Shown in pieces: positions 4,356-63,783 of a DNA stretch of 64,000 bases (positions within the stretch are counted from its first letter, which is position 1; each line of letters opens with the position of its first letter). Below the pieces are notes generated by a model, which saw only the letters and a list, made by a program, of their open reading frames with translations, searched no databases and was not told where the DNA came from. The stretch comes from Planctomycetaceae bacterium. Its GTDB lineage: Bacteria > Planctomycetota > Phycisphaerae > SM23-33. The stretch covers positions 1 to 64,000 of the forward strand of contig JBDKTA010000061.1 of NCBI GenBank assembly GCA_039680605.1, given 5' to 3'. Both the position numbers and the translations under genes were made by a program.

Positions 4356-4384
4356 CCTCACCACTCACCACTCACCACTCACAA
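4356..4384. repeat. CACTCAC short tandem array
   Basis: Four to five near-perfect copies of the 7-nt unit CACTCAC occupy 4356-4384, ending 6 nt before the stop codon of the SDR gene on the minus strand. No complementary arm is seen nearby. Confidence 0.8.
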
Positions 4385-4390
4385 CTTCTC

Positions 4391-5161
4391 TCACAGGCAC
4401 GTATATCCGCCGTCGATGATCAGGTCGGCGCCGGTCATGTAGCTCGAGGCGTTGGAGGCCAGGTACACGACGGCTGGGCCGAGTTCTTCGGGTCGGCCGG
4501 GTCGTCCGAGGGGAATGCGGTCCATCCAGACGCCGCCGAACTTGGGGTCGGCGAAGAACGGCTGAGCCATCGGCGTGGCCATGTAGCCCGGCGAGATCGA
4601 GTTGACCCGCACGCCGCGGGGCGCCCACTCGACGGCCAGCGACTTGGTCAGGTGGACGACGGCCGCCTTCGAGGCATTGTACGACGCCTGGCACTGGGGA
4701 ACGTTGACGATGGACCCGGACATCGAGGCGATGTTGATGATCGACCCGCCGCCGCGCTCGAGCATCTCGCTGCCGACGGCCTGGCTGGTGATGAACACGC
4801 CATTGAGGTTGACGTTCATCACGCGGTGCCAGTCTTCGAGCTTGGCGTCCTCGGCGCGGTCCCACTGCACGATCCCGGCGTTGTTGACCAGCACGTCGAT
4901 GGTGTCGAAGCGCTCGATGACCGCGTCGACGGCCGCGTTGACGCTGGCGGCGTCTGTGACGTCCATGTGGAGGAAGAGGGCCTCGCGTCCGAGGTCTTCG
5001 ACGTCGCCGGCGGCCTTTTCGCCCGTCTCGTCGTTGACTTCGGCGATGACGACGTCAGCCCCGGCGTTTGCCAGCGCCAAGGCCATTTCATACCCGAGCC
5101 CCTGCCCGGCGCCGGTGACCATGGCGACCTTGCCCGAAAGATTAAACGGATCTATCAACAT
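4391..5161 (-). CDS. SDR family NAD(P)-dependent oxidoreductase
   Basis: Classical short-chain dehydrogenase/reductase of 256 residues. The start MLIDPFNLSGKVAMVTGAG at 5159-5161 follows AGGAGA and gives the normal family length; a much longer upstream reading has no ribosome site. Visible landmarks: nucleotide-binding TGAGQGLG, NNAG in VLVNNAGIV, catalytic Ser region SMSGSIVNVPQ, catalytic YNASK, and ISPGYMATPM. The pattern resembles gluconate 5-dehydrogenase and 3-ketoacyl-reductase-like sugar dehydrogenases, but the substrate cannot be read from sequence. It is cytoplasmic and probably takes part in sugar or uronate catabolism. Confidence 0.92.
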   Translation of the reverse strand: MLIDPFNLSGKVAMVTGAGQGLGYEMALALANAGADVVIAEVNDETGEKAAGDVEDLGREALFLHMDVTDAASVNAAVDAVIERFDTIDVLVNNAGIVQWDRAEDAKLEDWHRVMNVNLNGVFITSQAVGSEMLERGGGSIINIASMSGSIVNVPQCQASYNASKAAVVHLTKSLAVEWAPRGVRVNSISPGYMATPMAQPFFADPKFGGVWMDRIPLGRPGRPEELGPAVVYLASNASSYMTGADLIIDGGYTCL

Positions 5162-6606: not shown

Positions 6607-6860
6607 CGAAGAATACTATCTCCGCCTCCGGTCGCTCTGTCCACGACAAACGCCCGTCGATCATCCGCCCCTGGGCCGCGCTGGGGTCCGGGGCAACGGC
6701 GATCCTGATTGTGCGGTCACAGGCTCTCATCGGACAACTCCTCACATGGGTTGTAGCGCCGCCGGCGGAATAGTTACAGGCTCTGCCCTGAAAATACAGC
6801 CGTGTGACGGGAGGCGCAGAAGGGTGCCATGGCGGCCGTTTCTCAGCCGCCCCCGAATAT

Positions 6861-7000
6861 TTCACCGCGGAGATCGCAGAGACCGCAGAGGTGTCTTGAA
6901 TCAAAAGGCTTACAGAAACTTTACGAGTGGGTCTCATGGACGTTAGATGGTCTTGTTTTGAGCCAATTTGTTCTCTGCGTGCTTTGCGGTCTCTGCGGTT
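6861..7000. repeat. Inverted pair of 9-nt tandem arrays (CGCAGAGNN family)
   Basis: Left arm 6861-6894 contains tandem copies of a 9-nt unit (CGGAGATCG-type, CGCAGAGAC, CGCAGAGGT) after TTCACCG. Right arm 6971-7000 is the complementary form (TTCTCTGCG, CTCTGCGGT). The arms lie between divergent genes, the ECF operon and the Tyr-rich protein gene. In the 564-bp gap 6607-7170 I see nothing else except an unusual CTGCCTGCCGGCAGGCAGG palindrome near 7026-7044. Confidence 0.85.
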
Positions 7001-7170
7001 CATGCAGTTTTCGGGCTATGGCGACCTGCCTGCCGGCAGGCAGGCCCGCCGAACAATGCGTGCGATGCCACCCCGCGTTGAAATTCCCGCCCGCGTGTAA
7101 CCGCCGCCCGCGGCGGCGCACAAACCCGTTGGACAGGTGTAATACCTCACGAAAGAAAGGTCAGGTGAAG

Positions 7171-12790: not shown

Positions 12791-13013
12791 AGCCGCTTCA
12801 GCGGCTTTTGTCCCGCCGGGAGGCGGGCTTAGCCCCGGCGTTTTACGCCGGGGGTCGAGAGCGGGTCTGTGACTCCCGCCCCAGCCCGCTTCAGCGGGCT
12901 TATTTGGAAGCCCGCTGAAGCGGGCTGACAAAGAGGCAGAGGCCGATTCGCGCCAGGGCTAAAGGCCCTGGCCTAACCGCGGCTGCGCCGCGACAAAGGC
13001 CGCTGAAGCGGCC
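12791..13013. repeat. Composite eight-hairpin cassette, copy 1
   Basis: A 223-bp block of eight consecutive hairpins in fixed order: AGCCGC/GCGGCT (12791-12806), CCCGCC/GGCGGG (12812-12827), CCCCGGCG/CGCCGGGG (12833-12853), AGCCCGC/GCGGGCT twice (12883-12900 and 12909-12926), GCCAGGGC/GCCCTGGC-type (12952-12972), CGCGGC/GCCGCG (12978-12992) and GGCCGC/GCGGCC (12998-13013). The same order occurs reversed at 20928-21149. It fills the gap between two lipoprotein genes; no coding potential. Confidence 0.92.
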
Positions 13014-18720: not shown

Positions 18721-19851
18721 ATGGACAGCAGGCAGGCCAAGATCGATCGCGTGACGGCGGCTATCGAGCATCGCCAGGGCGACCGCGTGCCCATCAGCGA
18801 CGCGTTCTGGACGAACTTCATCCGCCGCTGCCGCACCGAACTGGGCGTCGGGGCCGATTTCGACCCGTACCGCTACTGGGACCTGGACCTGGTGATCGTC
18901 AACCCGAACATGGACCCGCACATCCGCGGCATCGAGGTGATCGAGGACACGCCCGAGCACAAGCGCGTGCGCACCGGCTTCGGCGCGACCATCGTCCGCA
19001 AGAGCACCTATCCCATGCCGCACTTCGAGTCGTTCGAGACGCAGAGCTTCGAGCAGATGGAGGCCCTGGTCTTCGACGATCCGAAAGACCCGCGGCGGTA
19101 TTTCGAGGCCATCGACGATCAGCTCAACGCAGTCGGCGACGAGCTGAACCTCGGCTTGCCCGCGTGGATCGACCGGCTCAACAGCTACGCCGACGACTTC
19201 TGCGTCTTCGGCGGCGTGTGCGAGCCCCACGAGATGCTCTGGCGCATCGTCGGCACCGAGAACGCCCTGATCAAGATCGCCGAAGAGCCCGCCCGCATGG
19301 CGAAGTTCATCGAGCGACTGGGCGACTTCCTCGTCGGGCTCGTCGAGGGGCAGATCGCGGCCGCCAAGGGCAAGCTCTCGGGCCTGTACGTCTGGGGCGA
19401 CGTGGCGTACGACCACGGGATGTTCTTCTCGCCGCAGTACTGGCGGCAGGTGTATCAGCCGCAGCTGGCGCGGATCTGCGAGGCGATTCATCTGGCCGGG
19501 CTCAAGGTGATCTATCACGGCTGCGGCGACGCGCGGGCGGTGTATGACGACATGATCGCCGCCGGCGTGGATATGTACAATCCCCTCGAGGTCAAGGCCG
19601 GTCTGGACGTCGTCGAGCTCAAGAAGCAATACGCCGGCCGCCTGGGCTTCTGCGGCAACATCGACGCCCGCATCATGGCCACCAACGACCGCGACAAGCT
19701 CAAAGCCGAAGTGCTCCGAAAACTCGCAGCCGGCCAAGGCGGCGGTTACATCGTCCAGTCCGACCATTCCGTCCCCAGCGACGTCGCCCCGGCCACGTAC
19801 GACTACATGGTCAAGCTGGTCAAAGAGCACGGCAAGTTCCCGCTGCGCTGA
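18721..19851 (+). CDS. Uroporphyrinogen decarboxylase-like (methyltransferase-type) protein
   Basis: 376 residues, start MDSRQAKIDRVTAAIEHRQG with GGAG 8 nt upstream. This is the URO-D superfamily TIM-barrel fold shared by heme-pathway HemE and corrinoid methyltransferases such as MtaA/CmuA. Landmarks: the N-terminal 'R-V-x-x-A-I-E-H-R-Q-x-D-R-V-P' phrase, LYVWGDVAYDHGMFFSPQYW in the middle, a zinc-ligand-like VIYHGCGD and QSDHSVPSDVAPATYDYMV at the C-terminus. HemE-specific arginines are not evident and the Cys-containing loop favours the methyltransferase branch. It neighbours carbohydrate genes rather than heme genes; a role in methylated or sugar substrate catabolism is inference. A paralogue lies at 47638-48687. 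Confidence 0.85.
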   Translation: MDSRQAKIDRVTAAIEHRQGDRVPISDAFWTNFIRRCRTELGVGADFDPYRYWDLDLVIVNPNMDPHIRGIEVIEDTPEHKRVRTGFGATIVRKSTYPMPHFESFETQSFEQMEALVFDDPKDPRRYFEAIDDQLNAVGDELNLGLPAWIDRLNSYADDFCVFGGVCEPHEMLWRIVGTENALIKIAEEPARMAKFIERLGDFLVGLVEGQIAAAKGKLSGLYVWGDVAYDHGMFFSPQYWRQVYQPQLARICEAIHLAGLKVIYHGCGDARAVYDDMIAAGVDMYNPLEVKAGLDVVELKKQYAGRLGFCGNIDARIMATNDRDKLKAEVLRKLAAGQGGGYIVQSDHSVPSDVAPATYDYMVKLVKEHGKFPLR

Positions 19852-19853
19852 AG

Positions 19854-19915
19854 AAAGGTGAGAGGTGAGAGGTTAGAGTTGCCTCGCCTCCCACCTCTAA
19901 CCTCTCACCTTTTCT
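19854..19915. terminator. Inverted GGTGAGA array between convergent genes
   Basis: Left arm 19854-19878 (AAAGGTGAGAGGTGAGAGG then TTAGAG) and right arm about 19894-19915 (CTCTAACCTCTCACCTTTTC) pair over about 20 nt. It begins 2 nt after the stop of the URO-D-like gene and includes the stop of the convergent esterase gene, with a T-rich edge on the right. It is well placed to terminate transcription from both sides. Confidence 0.7.
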
Positions 19916-20825
19916 TGAGGTGCTTGTCGAAGAACTCGCGGATGAGCTTGTTGGTTTCGGGCGAGGTGAAGGCGGGGCCGCCGTGGCCTGCGCCTTCGAG
20001 GATCTTCAGCGTGCTGTCGACTCCGGCTTTCTGGAGAACGTCGTGAAGGCGGCGGCTTTGGCTGGCATGGACCATGGTGTCCTTGTCGCCGTGCATGATC
20101 AGAAACGGCGGGTCGTCTTTCGTGGCGTGCGTGACGGGGCTGGCCAGGCGCGCCTTGTCCAGGTTGTCCTTTACCGGCCCGCCCAGCAGGGCCGTCACCG
20201 GCGTGACAACCCGCCCCGGCAGCAGCGCCATGGGCACAAAGTCGGTCGGGCCGAACCAGTCGCACACCGCCTGAACGCGGCTTGAATACTCCTTGTTGCC
20301 GCCGACGTCGCCTTCGAGTTCCTTCACGCCGCCGCCGGTGCCCAGCAGCGCGACGAGGTGTCCGCCTGCCGAAGCGCCCCAGACGCCGATGCGGTCGGCG
20401 TCGAAGTTGTACTCCTTCGCGTGCGCCCGCACCCAGCGGATGGCGGCTTTGCAGTCGTGGATCTGCGCCGGGAAAACGGCTTCCTGGCTGAGCCGGTAGT
20501 TGATGCTGACGCCGGCGTACCCCATTGCGGGCACGGCCGCCGCGGGCGTGCGGGTCTTGCTGCCCTGCTGCCATCCGCCTCCGTGGATCCACACGATCAC
20601 CGGGACGGGCTTGTCCGTTCGCGCCGGCAGGTACAGGTCCAGCAGCAGGCGCTTGTTGCCCACGCGGGCGTACTCGACGTCGCGCCGCACGCCGCCCCGC
20701 GCCGGGGCCGACGCCGGCGCCGAGGCCGTCGCCGGCCGCGGCCTGTCCGCACCCGCGCCGACGCCCGCAGCCCACGCCATCGCGGCCGCGCACAGACTGA
20801 TCCCTGTGATCCGTTTCATCATCAT
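19905..20825 (-). CDS. Secreted alpha/beta-hydrolase (esterase, BD-FAE type)
   Basis: 306 residues from the first of three adjacent Met codons (MMMKRITGISLCAAAMAWAA), preceded by GGAG; signal peptide ends near GAGAD. Alpha/beta-hydrolase landmarks are complete: oxyanion VIVWIHGGGWQQGS, nucleophile elbow GVWGASAGGH (catalytic Ser), acid region MHGDKDTMV and GAGHGG with the catalytic His. The pattern YARVGNKRLLLDLYLP at the mature N-terminus is typical of planctomycete sulfatase-neighbourhood and BD-feruloyl-esterase-like enzymes. Likely role: deacylation of xylan or other polysaccharide substituents outside the cytoplasm. The gene is convergent with the URO-D-like gene. Confidence 0.88.
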   Translation of the reverse strand: MMMKRITGISLCAAAMAWAAGVGAGADRPRPATASAPASAPARGGVRRDVEYARVGNKRLLLDLYLPARTDKPVPVIVWIHGGGWQQGSKTRTPAAAVPAMGYAGVSINYRLSQEAVFPAQIHDCKAAIRWVRAHAKEYNFDADRIGVWGASAGGHLVALLGTGGGVKELEGDVGGNKEYSSRVQAVCDWFGPTDFVPMALLPGRVVTPVTALLGGPVKDNLDKARLASPVTHATKDDPPFLIMHGDKDTMVHASQSRRLHDVLQKAGVDSTLKILEGAGHGGPAFTSPETNKLIREFFDKHLKKR

Positions 20826-21247: not shown

Positions 21248-22276
21248 ATGCCCAAACGACTGATCTGCACCGCCAAGAAGACCCTCGCGTGGGAAGACTA
21301 TGAACTCACCGAACCGACCGGCGACCAGGTGTTGCTGGTCAGCGAGTTCGCGGCCGCCAAGCACGGCACGGAGATGTCGTGCTTCAAGGGCGTGATGTAC
21401 GACCGCGGGCACTTTGACGGCGAGATGGCGGTCTGGATGCCCGGGGCCGAGGGCTGGTGCAGCTTCCCCGTCGGCGTGGGCAACATGATCGTCGCCCGCG
21501 TGGAAAAGACCGGACCGGACGTCAAGACCCTCGCCGTCGGCGATAAGGTCTGCTTTCATTGCTGCTTTCAGCCGTCGATTGTTTTACCCGAAGGCGCGGT
21601 GCGCAAGATGCCCGCGGGCCTGGGCTGGAAGTCGGCCGTCTGTCTCGATCCGGCGGTGTTCGCCTTCTCGGCCGTGCGCGACGGGCATGTGCGCGTCGGC
21701 GACACGGTGGCCGTTTACGGCATGGGGGCCATCGGCCTGATGGTGATCCAGATCGCCCGCCTGGCCGGGGCGAGCAAGGTCATCGCAATCGAACCGTTGG
21801 CCAACCGCCGCGCGGTGGCCAAGGAACTCGGCGCCGACCTGGTGCTGGACCCCAACGCCTGCGACGCGGGGCTGGAGGTCAAGAAGGCCACCGACAAGCG
21901 CGGCGCCGACGTGACGATCGACTACAGCGGCGACGTCAAGGCCATGCACGACGCCCTGCGCGGGGCGGCCTACGGCGGCAATGTCGTCGCCGGGGCGATG
22001 CCCAGCGCCTATGGCGCCGGCCTGGACTTCGGCGCCGAAGCGCACTTCAACGTGCCCAACATCATCTTCTCCCGCGCGTGCAGCCAGCCCGACCGCGACC
22101 ACCCGCGATGGTCCGAACGCCGCATCACCGAGACGTGCTGGCAGTGGATCGCCCAAGGCCGCATCAACGGCGAGCCCGTCGTGCAGCCGGTCGTGGCGTA
22201 CGACGAGCTGATCAACGAATACCCCCTGATCGCCACCAACCCCGAGCGCAGCGTCAAGCTCGGGGCAAAATTCTGA
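21248..22276 (+). CDS. MDR-superfamily (alcohol dehydrogenase-like) oxidoreductase
   Basis: 342 residues, ATG at 21248 after AGGAG. The medium-chain dehydrogenase fold is clear: a GroES-like N-terminus, VGDKVCFHCCF, then the Rossmann segment VAVYGMGAIGLMVIQIARLA and a conserved acidic residue in VIAIEPLANRR. The catalytic-zinc signature is not canonical: the usual C-G-T-D is KHGTEM and the G-H-E motif reads GVGN, so it may be zinc-independent or use altered ligands. It precedes a GH51-like gene on the same strand by 113 bp containing a repeat, in a carbohydrate-degradation stretch. Probable sugar or polyol dehydrogenase; substrate unknown. Confidence 0.85.
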   Translation: MPKRLICTAKKTLAWEDYELTEPTGDQVLLVSEFAAAKHGTEMSCFKGVMYDRGHFDGEMAVWMPGAEGWCSFPVGVGNMIVARVEKTGPDVKTLAVGDKVCFHCCFQPSIVLPEGAVRKMPAGLGWKSAVCLDPAVFAFSAVRDGHVRVGDTVAVYGMGAIGLMVIQIARLAGASKVIAIEPLANRRAVAKELGADLVLDPNACDAGLEVKKATDKRGADVTIDYSGDVKAMHDALRGAAYGGNVVAGAMPSAYGAGLDFGAEAHFNVPNIIFSRACSQPDRDHPRWSERRITETCWQWIAQGRINGEPVVQPVVAYDELINEYPLIATNPERSVKLGAKF

Positions 22277-22278
22277 AC

Positions 22279-22377
22279 AATGGAAGAATGGAATGATGAA
22301 AGGCTGGAAGATTGGGAAGACCCGGAGAGGCTTTCCCCACGCCCCGGCATTCCATTATTCCATCATTCCACTATTGC
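22279..22377. repeat. Inverted pair of GGAATGATG/GGAAGAATG arrays
   Basis: Left arm 22279-22320 (TGGAAGAATGGAATGATG and related units) is complementary to right arm about 22348-22377 (CATTCCATTATTCCATCATT). It starts 3 nt after the dehydrogenase stop codon and ends 12 nt before the next start, so it fills the whole gap. Confidence 0.85.
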
Positions 22378-38151: not shown

Positions 38152-38156
38152 CCGGG

Positions 38157-38298
38157 GTGCCACGCACAACTCCGTTGTGCGTGTCCCTGAACATTCAGAG
38201 CAGAACAGCTTGTCCTGCATCGGCCATTCTCATTTCCGCCGACGGTTCTTTCCTGGCCCAGGGCACATTGGCACGCACAACGGAGTTGTGCGTGGCAC
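38157..38298. repeat. Inverted pair of CACGCACAAC/GTTGTGCGTG hairpins
   Basis: Two hairpin units (38161-38183 and 38272-38294), each a 10-bp stem with a 3-nt loop, are arranged as an inverted pair with flanks GGGTGC and GGCACCC. A third unit lies at 47542-47564. The 300-bp gap 38152-38451 holds only this pair and unassigned sequence. Confidence 0.9.
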
Positions 38299-38451
38299 CC
38301 GACCGCCAAGGCCTTCTCAGGTACCCATGCCACCCGCCGGACAACTCGCTCCTCACGGTGACTCGCTGGCTTCTTCATGCATGAATTAAATAAGTCCGTC
38401 CCCAGAACTCCAGGACCTGCCCCCTTTTCCTCAAGGCAAATCCAATGAGTT

Positions 38452-39210: not shown

Positions 39211-39535
39211 TACCGGGGGCCTCGCCCCCGGCTATGTCCTTATCGCCCCGCTGGGGGCGAAGATAACTCGCGGGCGGGACGCCCGCGGGACACGCGGACG
39301 GACGTCCGCTTACACGAACAGCAGACGAGGGCAAGATGCCCTCGCCACGCGCGGAGGGGACGTCCGCGACACGGATAACAGGCATGGGCGGGACGCCCAT
39401 GCCACACAACAAGAGCATGGGCGAGACGCCCATGCCACACGGCAAGAGCATACGCGAGACGCCCATGCTACTCACGGGGAAGATGCCCGTGCTACGGGGG
39501 ACGCCCGTGCCACTGCGGACGCCCGTGATACGGGT
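39211..39535. repeat. Array of about ten related hairpins (GGGCGRGACGCCC family)
   Basis: Successive short palindromes with stem-GAC/GAT-stem centres, each followed by a TGCCAC-like tag: CCGGGGGC/GCCCCCGG, CGCCCC/GGGGCG, CGCGGGC/GCCCGCG, GCGGAC/GTCCGC, CGAGGGC/GCCCTCG, CGCGGA/TCCGCG, CATGGGC/GCCCATG (twice), a degraded CATACGC/GCCCATG, ACGGG/CCCGT and two partial ones. Stem sequences vary while pairing is kept. It fills the gap between the DUF6171-like and GH51 genes; no gene there. Confidence 0.88.
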
Positions 39536-41043: not shown

Positions 41044-41127
41044 TGAGTGTTCCTTTCGTGGAAAGGCATTATCACTTGCGCGCGGGCGGTGTCAATATGT
41101 CGGCCTCGAATAGGGCGAAGAAAAAAG

Positions 41128-41366
41128 CCGACGACGAGGACGAGGACGAGGACGAGGACGATGAAACGGGATAGGGGAGTGCGGGATTACTGGATCGAGA
41201 AGATTAAGAGGATTGGGATCAGGGTCGAAGAGTTAGCGGCGTAGCCCGCCACGGCGGATCTTCGACTTGCTCCGCGCGTTTACAGGGTCTGAAGAACCGC
41301 GTCGAGCAAGCTCGACCGCTAACGTCCCCCTCGGGTCCCGTTTTTCGTCCTCGTCCTCGTCGTCGG
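41128..41366. repeat. Inverted pair of GACGAG arrays with internal palindrome, copy 1
   Basis: Left arm 41128-41162 is a 6-nt tandem array (CCGACGACGAGGACGAGG...), right arm 41346-41366 its complement (TCGTCCTCGTCCTCGTCGTC). Inside lies GTCGAGCAAGCTCGAC near 41302-41317 next to GCTAACG. A second element with the same arms and interior phrase is at 56881-57073. The 390-bp gap between divergent genes holds little else. Confidence 0.9.
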
Positions 41367-41433
41367 TTGTTATCTTTTGAGACGAAACAAGTCTTACAGC
41401 CTGCGGTTCAATCTCTACAAGGAGCTAAAAACT

Positions 41434-43401: not shown

Positions 43402-43527
43402 AGCTGATTCACCACAGAGTTCGCAAAGAACGCAGAGAAGAATAGAGACGGAGAAGGTCTGATTTAATGACTTCCTCCAATCTCTGCGACCTCTGCGATC
43501 TCTGCGGTGAATAGCTTTTTTTTGCCC
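43402..43527 (+). terminator. 9-nt array inverted pair followed by a T-run
   Basis: Left arm 43402-43460 (GCTGATTCACCACAGAG then GCAAAGAACGCAGAG) and right arm about 43481-43513 (CTCTGCGACCTCTGCGATCT then CTGCGGTGAATAGC) pair, and eight T residues follow at 43514-43523. It starts 4 nt after the LamG gene's stop. Same 9-nt family as 6861-7000 and 59030-59345. Confidence 0.75.
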
Positions 43528-49975: not shown

Positions 49976-50132
49976 CAGTAACCAGTAACCAGTAACCAGT
50001 AACCAGTAACCAGTAACCAGTAATCAGTAACCAGTAATATCAGTAATCAGTAATCAGTAACCAGTAACCAAGCCACGAATCACGGAGCCCGGTACCGATT
50101 ACTGATTACCGATTACCGATTACTGCTGTTAA
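49976..50132. repeat. Inverted pair of heptamer arrays (CAGTAAC / GATTACC)
   Basis: Left arm 49976-50070 holds about twelve copies of the 7-nt unit CAGTAAC/CAGTAAT; right arm about 50091-50132 holds six complementary units (CGATTAC, TGATTAC). The arm starts 8 nt after the receiver's stop codon and the element ends 14 nt before the kinase start. Comparable to the STRR heptamers of filamentous cyanobacteria. Confidence 0.95.
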
Positions 50133-50145
50133 CAAGGTGTGAGCG

Positions 50146-50982
50146 ATGCTCGACGAATCGCAGCAACTGCCCATCGGCGGCGCGGCCGCCAACGACGCGG
50201 CGCTTCAGCGGCAATTCCTGCAGATGCAGAAGATCGAGGCCCTGGCGCTTCTGGTGGGCAATGTCGCTCATGACTTCGGCAATCAGCTTTCGCTGATCAG
50301 CGGATACGGGCAAATGCTCATGCGCCGCCGCGCCGGCGACGTCGAAGACCGCCGCCTGCTCGAACAGGTGCTCAAGGCCGCCGACCGCTCGAACGACCTG
50401 TGCCAGCGGTTGCTGTCGGCGTGCCGCCGCGAGATCGTCCGCCCGGTGCTGGTGAACGTCGGAGACCTGCTGACGGAGATGGCCGCCCCGCTGGACCGGT
50501 TGCTGGGCAAGTACGTTTCGATGTCGATTCGTCTCTCGCCGGCGCCGGCGTGGGTCAAGACCGACCCGGCGCAGCTTCAGCAGGCGATGATCAACCTGCT
50601 GATGAACGCTCGAGACGCGGTGGCCTCGAGCGGCAACGTCGGCGTCGAAATCACCCACGTGCTGGTGGATCGCCAGCAGGCCCGCCGCCACGCTCCGGTC
50701 CAAGCCGGGCGATTCGTCAGGCTGGTCGTCAAAGACGACGGCGTGGGCATGGACAAGCAGACCCTCTCGCAACTCTTTCAACCGTTCTTCACCACCAAGC
50801 CCCCTGGAAAGGGAACGGGGCTGGGGTTGACGATGGTCAGCCGGTTCGTTCGCCAGAGCGGGGGGTTCATCACCGTCGATAGCCGCCCCGGAAAGGGCAG
50901 CGCATTCAACATGTTCCTGCCGGCCATCCCCGTGCGGCCGGCGCACGCGCCGCAAAGAGCGAAAGTAGTCAGTAATCAGTAA
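50146..50982 (+). CDS. Soluble sensor-less histidine kinase
   Basis: 278 residues. Dimerisation/phosphotransfer region: MQKIEALALLVGNVAHDFGN with phosphorylatable His42 (H-D-F-G-N, the NtrB-like H-box). ATPase domain: N-box MINLLMNARDAV, G1 VVKDDGVGMD, F-box LFQPFFTTKPPGKG, G2 GTGLGLTMVSRF. No membrane segment or input domain beyond about 30 residues, so it is cytoplasmic and may be activated through a partner. It presumably phosphorylates the receiver encoded just upstream. Its last codons (KVVSNQ) are contributed by the heptamer array that continues past the stop. Confidence 0.9.
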   Translation: MLDESQQLPIGGAAANDAALQRQFLQMQKIEALALLVGNVAHDFGNQLSLISGYGQMLMRRRAGDVEDRRLLEQVLKAADRSNDLCQRLLSACRREIVRPVLVNVGDLLTEMAAPLDRLLGKYVSMSIRLSPAPAWVKTDPAQLQQAMINLLMNARDAVASSGNVGVEITHVLVDRQQARRHAPVQAGRFVRLVVKDDGVGMDKQTLSQLFQPFFTTKPPGKGTGLGLTMVSRFVRQSGGFITVDSRPGKGSAFNMFLPAIPVRPAHAPQRAKVVSNQ

Positions 50983-51134
50983 ATCGGTCCCTTGCACACG
51001 CAGTGCCACTGCCGCCGGTTTGGTCATTAGTCCTTTGGTCGCTGATGCTCGTCTGGCATTTCGTGCGGATTGAATACTAAATAGTAGGTGACTGGTTACC
51101 GATTACCGGTGTTACCGATTACTGATTACCAATT
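50966..51134. repeat. Inverted pair of heptamer arrays between convergent genes
   Basis: Left arm 50966-50987 (TAGTCAGTAATCAGTAAATC) includes the kinase's stop codon; right arm about 51090-51134 (CTGGTTACCGATTACCGG, GATTACTGATTACC) ends 14 nt from the stop of the convergent sigma gene. Same unit family as 49976-50132. Confidence 0.9.
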
Positions 51135-56866: not shown

Positions 56867-56880
56867 AGAAGGGGAAGAAA

Positions 56881-57073
56881 CCGACGACGAGGACGAGGAC
56901 GAGGACGAGAAGACACGGCGGAGGCAGTTCCCGGTTTTGTTAGCGGTCGAGCTTGCTCGACGTTTCCTTGACCTCAAAAACCCGCGGGGCATCCGACTTC
57001 GCCAGAGGCTACGGCGGGCAGTATCCCCGCCGCTAAACGAAGAAGCTCAATTCGTCCTCGTCCTCGTCGTCGG
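56881..57073. repeat. Inverted pair of GACGAG arrays with internal palindrome, copy 2
   Basis: Left arm 56881-56910 (CCGACGACGAGGACGAGGAC...) and right arm about 57051-57073 (TTCGTCCTCGTCCTCGTCGT) pair. Interior GGTCGAGCTTGCTCGACG near 56945-56962 follows GTTAGC, as in copy 1 (41128-41366). It lies between the convergent acyltransferase fusion and dnaG genes, 14 and 20 nt from their stops. Confidence 0.9.
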
Positions 57074-57093
57074 TTGTTTCTTTCTTTCGCGCT

Positions 57094-59029: not shown

Positions 59030-59345
59030 ACTCACCGCAGAGGTCGCAAAGAACGCGGAGAAGAGAGAATGAATCGAGGGAAGTCCGGGTGCCATGGCGG
59101 CCGTTTTCAAGCCGCCATGTCTTCGCCCCGTCAGGGGCGACAGAAATCACAAGAGAGTCCTGCAATGATGGAGGCGCAGGGGGGCGAACCCAAGCATAGA
59201 ACCGCGGTGATAACAACCGCGTCGAGCATATTAGCTTCGCCAGAGGCTACGCAGGACAAGAGCTCGACCGCCAACGTGGCGCATCGGTGTTTCTCCCCGT
59301 CTCTCATCTTCTTCCTCTGCGGTCTCTGCGACCTCGGCGGTGAAA
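59030..59345. repeat. Inverted pair of 9-nt arrays abutting the RNase H stop
   Basis: Left arm about 59030-59066 (GACTCACCGCAGAGGTCGC then AAAGAACGCGGAG) and right arm about 59309-59345 (TTCTTCCTCTGCGGTCTCTG then CGACCTCGGCGGTGAA) are complementary in the CGCAGAGNN family. The right arm ends 1 nt before the RNase HI stop codon. Interior 240 bp contains GCCATGGCGGCCG and remnants related to other arms (CTCGACCGCCAACG) but no gene. Confidence 0.88.
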
Positions 59346-63561: not shown

Positions 63562-63604
63562 GATAAAGCGCGCAAGGAATCATTTCAATCGCCGCGGAGA
63601 GCCG

Positions 63605-63721
63605 GTGCCGTGGCGCGCAGGCCCGAAGGGCCGGAGAGCCACGATCCCCGATTTTAAACATGCAGTGAAATGTTGCTCACTTCGTGGCTCTCCGGGCCTG
63701 CGGCCCTGCGCGCCACGGCAC
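63605..63721. repeat. Long inverted repeat with hairpin arms
   Basis: Arms of about 39 nt (63605-63643 and 63682-63721, GTGCCGTGGCGCGCAGG...GAGAGCCACGA) surround a 38-nt spacer. Each arm contains its own hairpin, GGCCC/GGGCC in the left and GGGCC/GGCCC in the right, again exchanged but paired. It lies between hpt and the next plus-strand gene. Confidence 0.92.
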
Positions 63722-63783
63722 CCGCCCCAGGCACCGGCCATTATGGCACCCGGCGTGAGCGGGATGGCCGTCGGGTTTTTCTT

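Follow-up and report, generated by a model that had tools for sequence, protein, structure and literature searches.

The closest published relatives of the elements described here are the heptamer repeats, GGGAATC / GGGGA(C/T)T, that Rehm et al. (2015, PMC4692102) reported from Xanthomonas and Nostoc. Read on the coding strand, these adjoin or overlap the stop codon, and on the opposite strand they lie close to the following start; they include 70 convergent inverted pairs in Xcc and 75 in Xac (PMC4692102). The TAACTGA repeats of Beggiatoaceae (MacGregor 2015, PMC4679880) are likewise intergenic heptamer direct repeats common to distant phyla, although they are mostly direct, with a single indirect repeat, and lie just upstream of start codons. 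REP elements (PMC3733652; PMC12306157) are dispersed extragenic hairpins, many of them within 15 nt of a stop, at which distance those of E. coli can stall ribosomes (PMC12306157); REP and RAYT/TIRYT systems consist of compact tagged palindromes with a Y1 transposase, whereas the elements here are tandem arrays. BrickBuilt of Porphyromonas gingivalis (PMC4596501) is, like one family below, a multicopy intergenic MITE containing tandem repeats, but its unit is 23 nt long, its arrays are not inverted pairs and it keeps at least 49 nt from coding sequences.

The DNA analysed here, a 64,000-nt stretch from a Planctomycetaceae bacterium (hereafter the window), belongs to contig C61 of a genome (G000) totalling 5.23 Mb in 72 contigs. 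Its elements share with the Xanthomonas/Nostoc class the dispersed intergenic tandem units of about 7 nt and the stop/start polarity. That class is characterized by a single G-rich unit in each genome, interpreted as a G-quadruplex, whereas the present genome contains more than 12 unit families of 6–10 nt that are mostly not G4-capable, with CAGTAAY, AGATCCT, TTCCAAT and GATTGCG lacking GGG altogether. Nested hairpins, the presence of one family in a transposed MITE, and divergent gaps that are not depleted also set the elements apart from it (PMC4692102). Cyanobacterial STRR heptamers, proposed in an earlier note on this DNA as the nearest analogue, are comparable as genome-dispersed intergenic heptamer arrays, but the Xanthomonas/Nostoc heptamers are the closest published case. 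A literature search by repeat sequence returned nothing relevant. The kind of element is already known; what is new is that it falls into many families, nests, is carried in part by a MITE and occurs phage-wide.

Inverted array pairs in the window and the genome

The most conspicuous element, a CAGTAAC array with a complementary GATTACC array behind the stop of a receiver gene (a Response_reg domain match), is present as the earlier note had described it, and the gene that follows encodes a histidine kinase (Table 1). The three convergent gene ends at which each arm was said to meet one stop (19851/19905, 50982/51149 and 56866/57094) were borne out, as were all but two of the listed stop/arm loci, including those at 22276, 43398 and 59347. 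The two that fell away are the esterase locus at 2736–2806, which is a REP-like palindrome containing no tandem array, and the SDR array with its stop at 4391, which has no inverted partner above the score threshold used. The hairpin at 22276–22375 occupies its tight tandem gap but for about 13 nt, and the element ending at 59343 has a spacer of 254 nt with other palindromes nested inside. Separately, positions 63601–63725 contain a 44-nt inverted repeat (37-nt spacer, 91% complementary) that is not built of tandem units. A tRNA was the sole match in an Rfam search.

Table 1. Repeat elements of the window, with neighbouring stop codons and starts.
Feature	Position	Strand	Arms and context
Unpaired CTCACCA (sense TGGTGAG) heptamer array	4357..4386	-	4 nt past stop 4391
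MITE copy, internally deleted	6852..7015	.	164 bp versus ~197 bp for the full element; MITE ends contain nonamer arms
GGTGAGA heptamer hairpin	19851..19916	.	Arms 19851-19881 / 19885-19916; between convergent stops 19851 and 19905
GGAATGAT octamer hairpin	22276..22375	.	Arms 22276-22307 / 22344-22375
CGAGGA hexamer arms	41117..41377	.	Between divergent genes; spacer contains other dispersed palindromes
CGCAGAGRT nonamer hairpin	43408..43511	.	9 nt past LamG-protein stop 43398; T8 run follows
Proximal arm, CAGTAAC/CAGTAAT heptamer array (13 units)	49976..50070	+	7 nt past receiver-gene stop 49968
Distal inverted arm, GATTACC/GATTACT heptamers	50093..50123	+	Ends 22 nt ahead of kinase start 50146
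Short CAGTAATCAGTAA arm	50970..50982	+	Contains the kinase gene's own TAA stop (50980-50982)
Inverted partner of CAGTAATCAGTAA arm, ACTGGTTACCGATTACC...GATTACC	51092..51131 (approx.)	+	Faces sigma-factor gene stop 51149
CGAGGA hexamer arms	56871..57083	.	Adjoin stops of acyltransferase fusion gene (56866) and dnaG (57094)
Nonamer arms	59032..59343	.	Arms 59032-59060 / 59315-59343; RNase H-like gene stop 59347

Arrays were then counted with a purpose-written codon-bias gene finder and array finder, run on stretches of the same genome in a sample grown stepwise from 0.86 Mb to 1.26 Mb and 1.66 Mb. Part of the first sample was picked for containing the heptamer; the result stands without those contigs, and the contigs added last (C63, C9 and C15) agree, with 9 of 25 elements at a stop versus 3 at a start. 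In the 1.66 Mb, arrays of 5–10-nt units occur in 193 of 1,197 intergenic gaps, 285 arrays being intergenic versus 60 coding, and the elements make up about 8% of the intergenic DNA sampled. The real window contains 13 arrays; simulated windows contained 0. An inverted partner of its own (score ≥36) accompanies 54% of arrays, compared to 12% in controls swapped with other element-bearing gaps and 6% in swaps with other gaps, which confirms the arm–spacer–inverted-arm architecture and limits pairing to about half of the arrays. A hairpin score threshold of 24 was dropped in favour of 36 because half of the swapped controls also passed it.

The earlier note had also observed that unit sequences differ between loci on a common architecture, and over a dozen families now attest to this. 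The commonest period is 7 nt (CAGTAAY, AGATCCT, TTCCAAT, GATTKCG, GTGAGTG, AGTTCGA and AACYGGG), accompanied by units of 8 nt (GGAATGAT, GGATGRAT and CACAGAGG), 9 nt (CGCAGAGRY/CGCTGAGGT and CACGAATGA) and 6 nt (CGAGGA). Dispersed families keep their unit order, while the spacers, 3–340 nt long, are mostly unrelated in sequence. The polarity of the stop-side arm is fixed in the main families with few exceptions, and of 75 arms lying next to a stop, 63 are rich in purines on the sense strand. Nesting is frequent, with octamer arms inside nonamer arms and sometimes REP palindromes inside octamer arms.

Two members of other genera of the same family (G015 and G008) display the same architecture and stop peak (31/60 at a stop versus 9/60 at a start) with units that differ in part (GTAGGGC, GTAATTG, AGCRATC and CACGGAGAA), so that units turn over between genera. 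A dnaG scan of named genomes found no same-genus relative for empty-site comparison. Exact CAGTAAY triplets occur in 5 of 199 genomes of the phylum, and exact CAGTAAY is also found in Cyanobacteria (Microcystis, Spirulina and Fischerella), Bacteroidota, Chloroflexi, Verrucomicrobiota, Clostridium, Gammaproteobacteria and others. Of 70 CAGTAAY loci, 25 have an upstream stop at most 15 nt away on the sense side, versus 7 for each of the three other configurations, a count that is partly built in because some stops fall inside the array; by our count (score ≥34), the inverted partner of these loci lies on the inner side in 18 and on the outer side in 3.

Placement at stop codons and a transposed family

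In tandem gaps, 39 of the 67 strict pairs start within 10 nt past the upstream stop and 7 of 67 end within 10 nt before the start; for unpaired arrays (1.66 Mb) the corresponding figures are 20/60 and 3/60. The earlier note had held that distances no different from random intergenic placement would count against anchoring at stops, and random placement was rejected on the first 1.26 Mb (P<0.001). A more demanding null model, a start-avoidance ramp penalising insertion near starts over up to 100 nt, predicts about 21 of 53 pairs at a stop, with 31 observed (P<0.001); among 48 unpaired arrays it predicts about 5, with 19 observed. A cruder null barring the 50–70 nt upstream of starts soaks up most of the stop excess. 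Insofar as the ramp leaves an excess and the cruder null absorbs most of it, start avoidance accounts for part, and not the whole, of the stop peak. Anchoring near stops is therefore real beyond chance, but roughly one-third to one-half of the elements are not near a stop.

Elements of all families slightly favour TAA/TAG stops (50/77 versus 624/1,206, P=0.026). The genes that bear elements are untruncated, their C-termini agreeing with those of orthologs, which rules out gene truncation by insertion as the source of the anchoring; the 0–10 nt peak lies past native stops. Unrelated repeated palindromes of the REP-like type are placed likewise (16 of 44 within 10 nt of a stop), whereas single-copy terminator-like hairpins are not (6 of 41, most lying at 11–30 nt). 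The latter are probably native terminators, and the comparison indicates that hugging the stop is here a habit of dispersed repeats and not of terminators.

For one family, a route to such placement can be traced. The region at 6861–7000, which the earlier note had set aside as an exception between divergent genes, turned out to be one copy of a MITE that has transposed and has about 46 matches in the genome. Full-length copies of ~197 bp have the ends CCCGGATATTTCACCGCGGAGATCGCAGAG... and ...CTCTGCGGTTCATGCAGTTTTCGGG and a conserved interior, and their flanks are unrelated. The motif YTAR, the target of the IS5 group, occurs at the left of 15 and at the right of 12 of 18 copies, and the flanking 4-mers agree within 9 of the 18 copies, versus 16% between copies. 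With defined ends, a conserved interior, a target-site duplication and multiple copies, the 6852–7015 family is a MITE, and its transposition is real. Several copies sit exactly at a stop. As YTAR includes TAA and TAG, insertion into a stop leaves a stop; specifically, insertion duplicates YTA, and the element's first base (G/A) or the duplicated R restores TAG or TAA.

No MITE-like ends, as expected of an autonomous IS5-type (YTAR) parent, were found near the genome's three DDE_Tnp_1 genes. An IS630 element was rejected as the parent on account of its different ends, even though the TA edge of such an element is the exact position of one MITE copy (TA-GAGCATCTAGCG...; L290, G000:C61:65943-66127; L362, G000:C54:72500-76000). 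At these loci, an intact-looking neighbour copy carries a long T-run within the transposase region. For the other array families, flanking direct repeats of at least 7 bp occur at a rate of 4.5%, versus 1.3% in controls.

Simple palindromes flank several of the genome's Y1 genes (loci L348, L062, L349, L350, L354, L356 and L357); those exemplified by GCCCGCTTCAGCGGGC, GCATGGGCGTCTCGCCCATGC and CACGCACAACTCCGTTGTGCGTGGCACCC are the classical REP families of this genome. Palindromes of this type are also strewn through the window, at 2736–2806, 12882–12927, 38155–38300 and 39260–39530. Two reverse-transcriptase matches (G000:C14:10376-11008 and C39:9168-9638) have no array in the flanks examined.

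RNA 3′ ends and phage gene junctions

The earlier note took the constant architecture as a sign of selection on foldable structure at 3′ ends. On such an account, which we judge rather unlikely, the elements would act as a bidirectional terminator, an exonuclease barrier or an RNase III-type site of the upstream mRNA, and their tandem build would let slippage repair the stem easily. The sharp proximity to stops is in its favour, as is a T-rich flank beyond the distal arm (0.34, against a background of 0.22). In addition, Xanthomonas transcripts begin or end at G4-forming heptamer repeats oftener than at control repeats (PMC4692102). However, arrays are as common in divergent gaps (35/192) as in convergent ones (41/195, P=0.52), and the sense strand folds better than the antisense strand in only 37 of 67 cases (P=0.83); at the flagship locus (49976–50123) the antisense RNA reaches –73 kcal/mol versus –40 kcal/mol for the sense RNA. 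Stem mismatches in the genome show no G·U bias on the sense strand (63 G·U versus 76 A·C), and a T-run after the stem, as in intrinsic terminators, follows 9 of 57 elements on the sense strand versus 8 of 57 on the antisense strand. The presence of elements in tight tandem gaps such as 22276–22375, and among co-directional phage virion genes, also counts against this account because full termination would be harmful there.

Orthologous stops were compared in 103 reciprocal best-hit pairs with G015 and G008, among which an element is present in this genome in 16, in the relative in 15 and on both sides in 4; co-occupation does not exceed expectation (4 versus 2.3, P=0.18), which, together with the symmetry of folding and T-runs, speaks against selection on 3′-end RNA. 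In the relatives whose dnaG 3′ end was inspected, no array of this kind directly adjoins the stop. In one instance, adjacent orthologues end in arrays in both genera (G000:C49, genes at ~53217 and ~54352; G015:C1, ~192850-193400); the units there differ, AGATCCT versus TAGTTCC, possibly because these stops have been occupied repeatedly.

Scanning viral contigs revealed a group of tailed soil phages with terminase, tape measure, baseplate hub, tail and endolysin genes (metagenomic loci L407, L417 and L400, IMG/VR contigs 3300044824_000335 and 3300038417_000269; relatives L418-L420, L430-L432 and L435), each locus being read separately and not as part of an assembled genome. Most gaps of at least 60 nt between co-directional genes in this group contain an array (9/9 in L407 and 6/7 in L417). 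Across nine loci, 31 hairpins with stems of 25–63 bp start a median of 2 nt past the stop and end a median of 13 nt before the next start. Relatives at 61–80% protein identity carry arrays beside the same genes with other units (the group's units being CAGTGAT, AGTGAGC, ACTGGGA, CAGTAGT, CCTTAGCG, CTGTTTT and CCTTTGCG), while in other relatives the gaps are short and arrays are absent. This turnover of units is the best support for an architecture that outlives its sequence, and retention of the architecture despite changing units is the outcome expected if architecture were under selection. To this extent the observation favours the proposal of selection on structure, and an RNA 3′-end role could likewise draw on long stems that persist between co-directional phage genes. 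The phage hairpins nevertheless speak against selection on the sense RNA, because a T-run follows only 1 of the 31 and the sense-strand mismatches are biased to A·C (100 A·C versus 54 G·U, P=0.0003), opposite to a wobble bias.

Origin and maintenance of the elements

Overall, we lean, with slightly better than even confidence, towards the view that these elements are tolerated, dispersed non-coding DNA hairpin repeats and not selected RNA folds. Their upkeep would occur at the DNA level, through copying, transposition and slippage, with no selection on a particular RNA fold. Placement would be governed mainly by tolerance within the free strip bounded by a stop codon on one side and by the next gene's ribosome-binding site or promoter on the other, with elements accumulating at its stop end. 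Families other than the MITE may have spread by a comparable copying process, their stop peak arising from tolerance combined with target preference. The nesting of hairpins in the loops of other hairpins, and the span of the phage hairpins from the stop to near the start, count in favour of this view. Against this reading, target duplication is undetectable in most families beyond the slight excess given above, no transposase was found with these arms, and pure tolerance alone does not predict so sharp a peak at 0–10 nt. The elements are probably transcribed, forming hairpins with mild effects on mRNA ends.

Plain slippage-born microsatellites, tolerated in gaps and complementary by chance, would explain the variable unit number and the smaller number of coding arrays, but are an improbable source: as a full account they are refuted by the partner and position tests, the own-partner rate far exceeding that of the swaps, and the fixed polarity, the stop peak and the constant order of units in dispersed families also count against them. 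The length of arrays is probably still shaped by slippage. We consider it very unlikely that the arrays serve as a translational back-up, supplying stops in all frames behind a gene or mildly stalling terminating ribosomes in the manner of E. coli REPs (PMC12306157). CAGTAAY does carry TAA and TGGTGAG carries TGA, the arm polarity of CAGTAAY and GTGAGTG puts these stops on the sense strand, and some genes, such as the kinase ending at 50982, terminate within an arm; yet units free of stop triplets peak equally (23 of 74 at 0–10 nt on the stop side versus 5 on the start side), which rules out the triplets as the cause of the peak. That the arrays are ordinary REP elements mobilised by the genome's Y1 (RAYT-like) transposases is scarcely credible despite 15 Y1_Tnp matches and equally stop-proximal repeated palindromes, since the inverted repeats flanking Y1 genes are simple palindromes and never tandem-array arms, and since arms built of tandem arrays around 3–340-nt spacers are unlike a REP.

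A wider and rather doubtful possibility is that a DNA-level process common to bacteria and phages keeps making inverted array pairs at gene junctions, with units turning over by lineage while the frame of stop, arm, spacer, inverted arm and ribosome-binding site stays constant. Given that arrays fill most junctions in one tailed-phage group, phages may amplify arrays and ferry unit families between phyla. Similar arrays occur across many phyla, yet they have no common name and have received little study. The present data make it testable whether stop-hugging hairpin repeats are functional 3′ ends or DNA parked where it does least harm. A MITE with a stop-like target motif offers a concrete route to stop-hugging without any function, and the phage group, with pairs at most junctions and units that change among relatives, provides a compact test system for both ideas.
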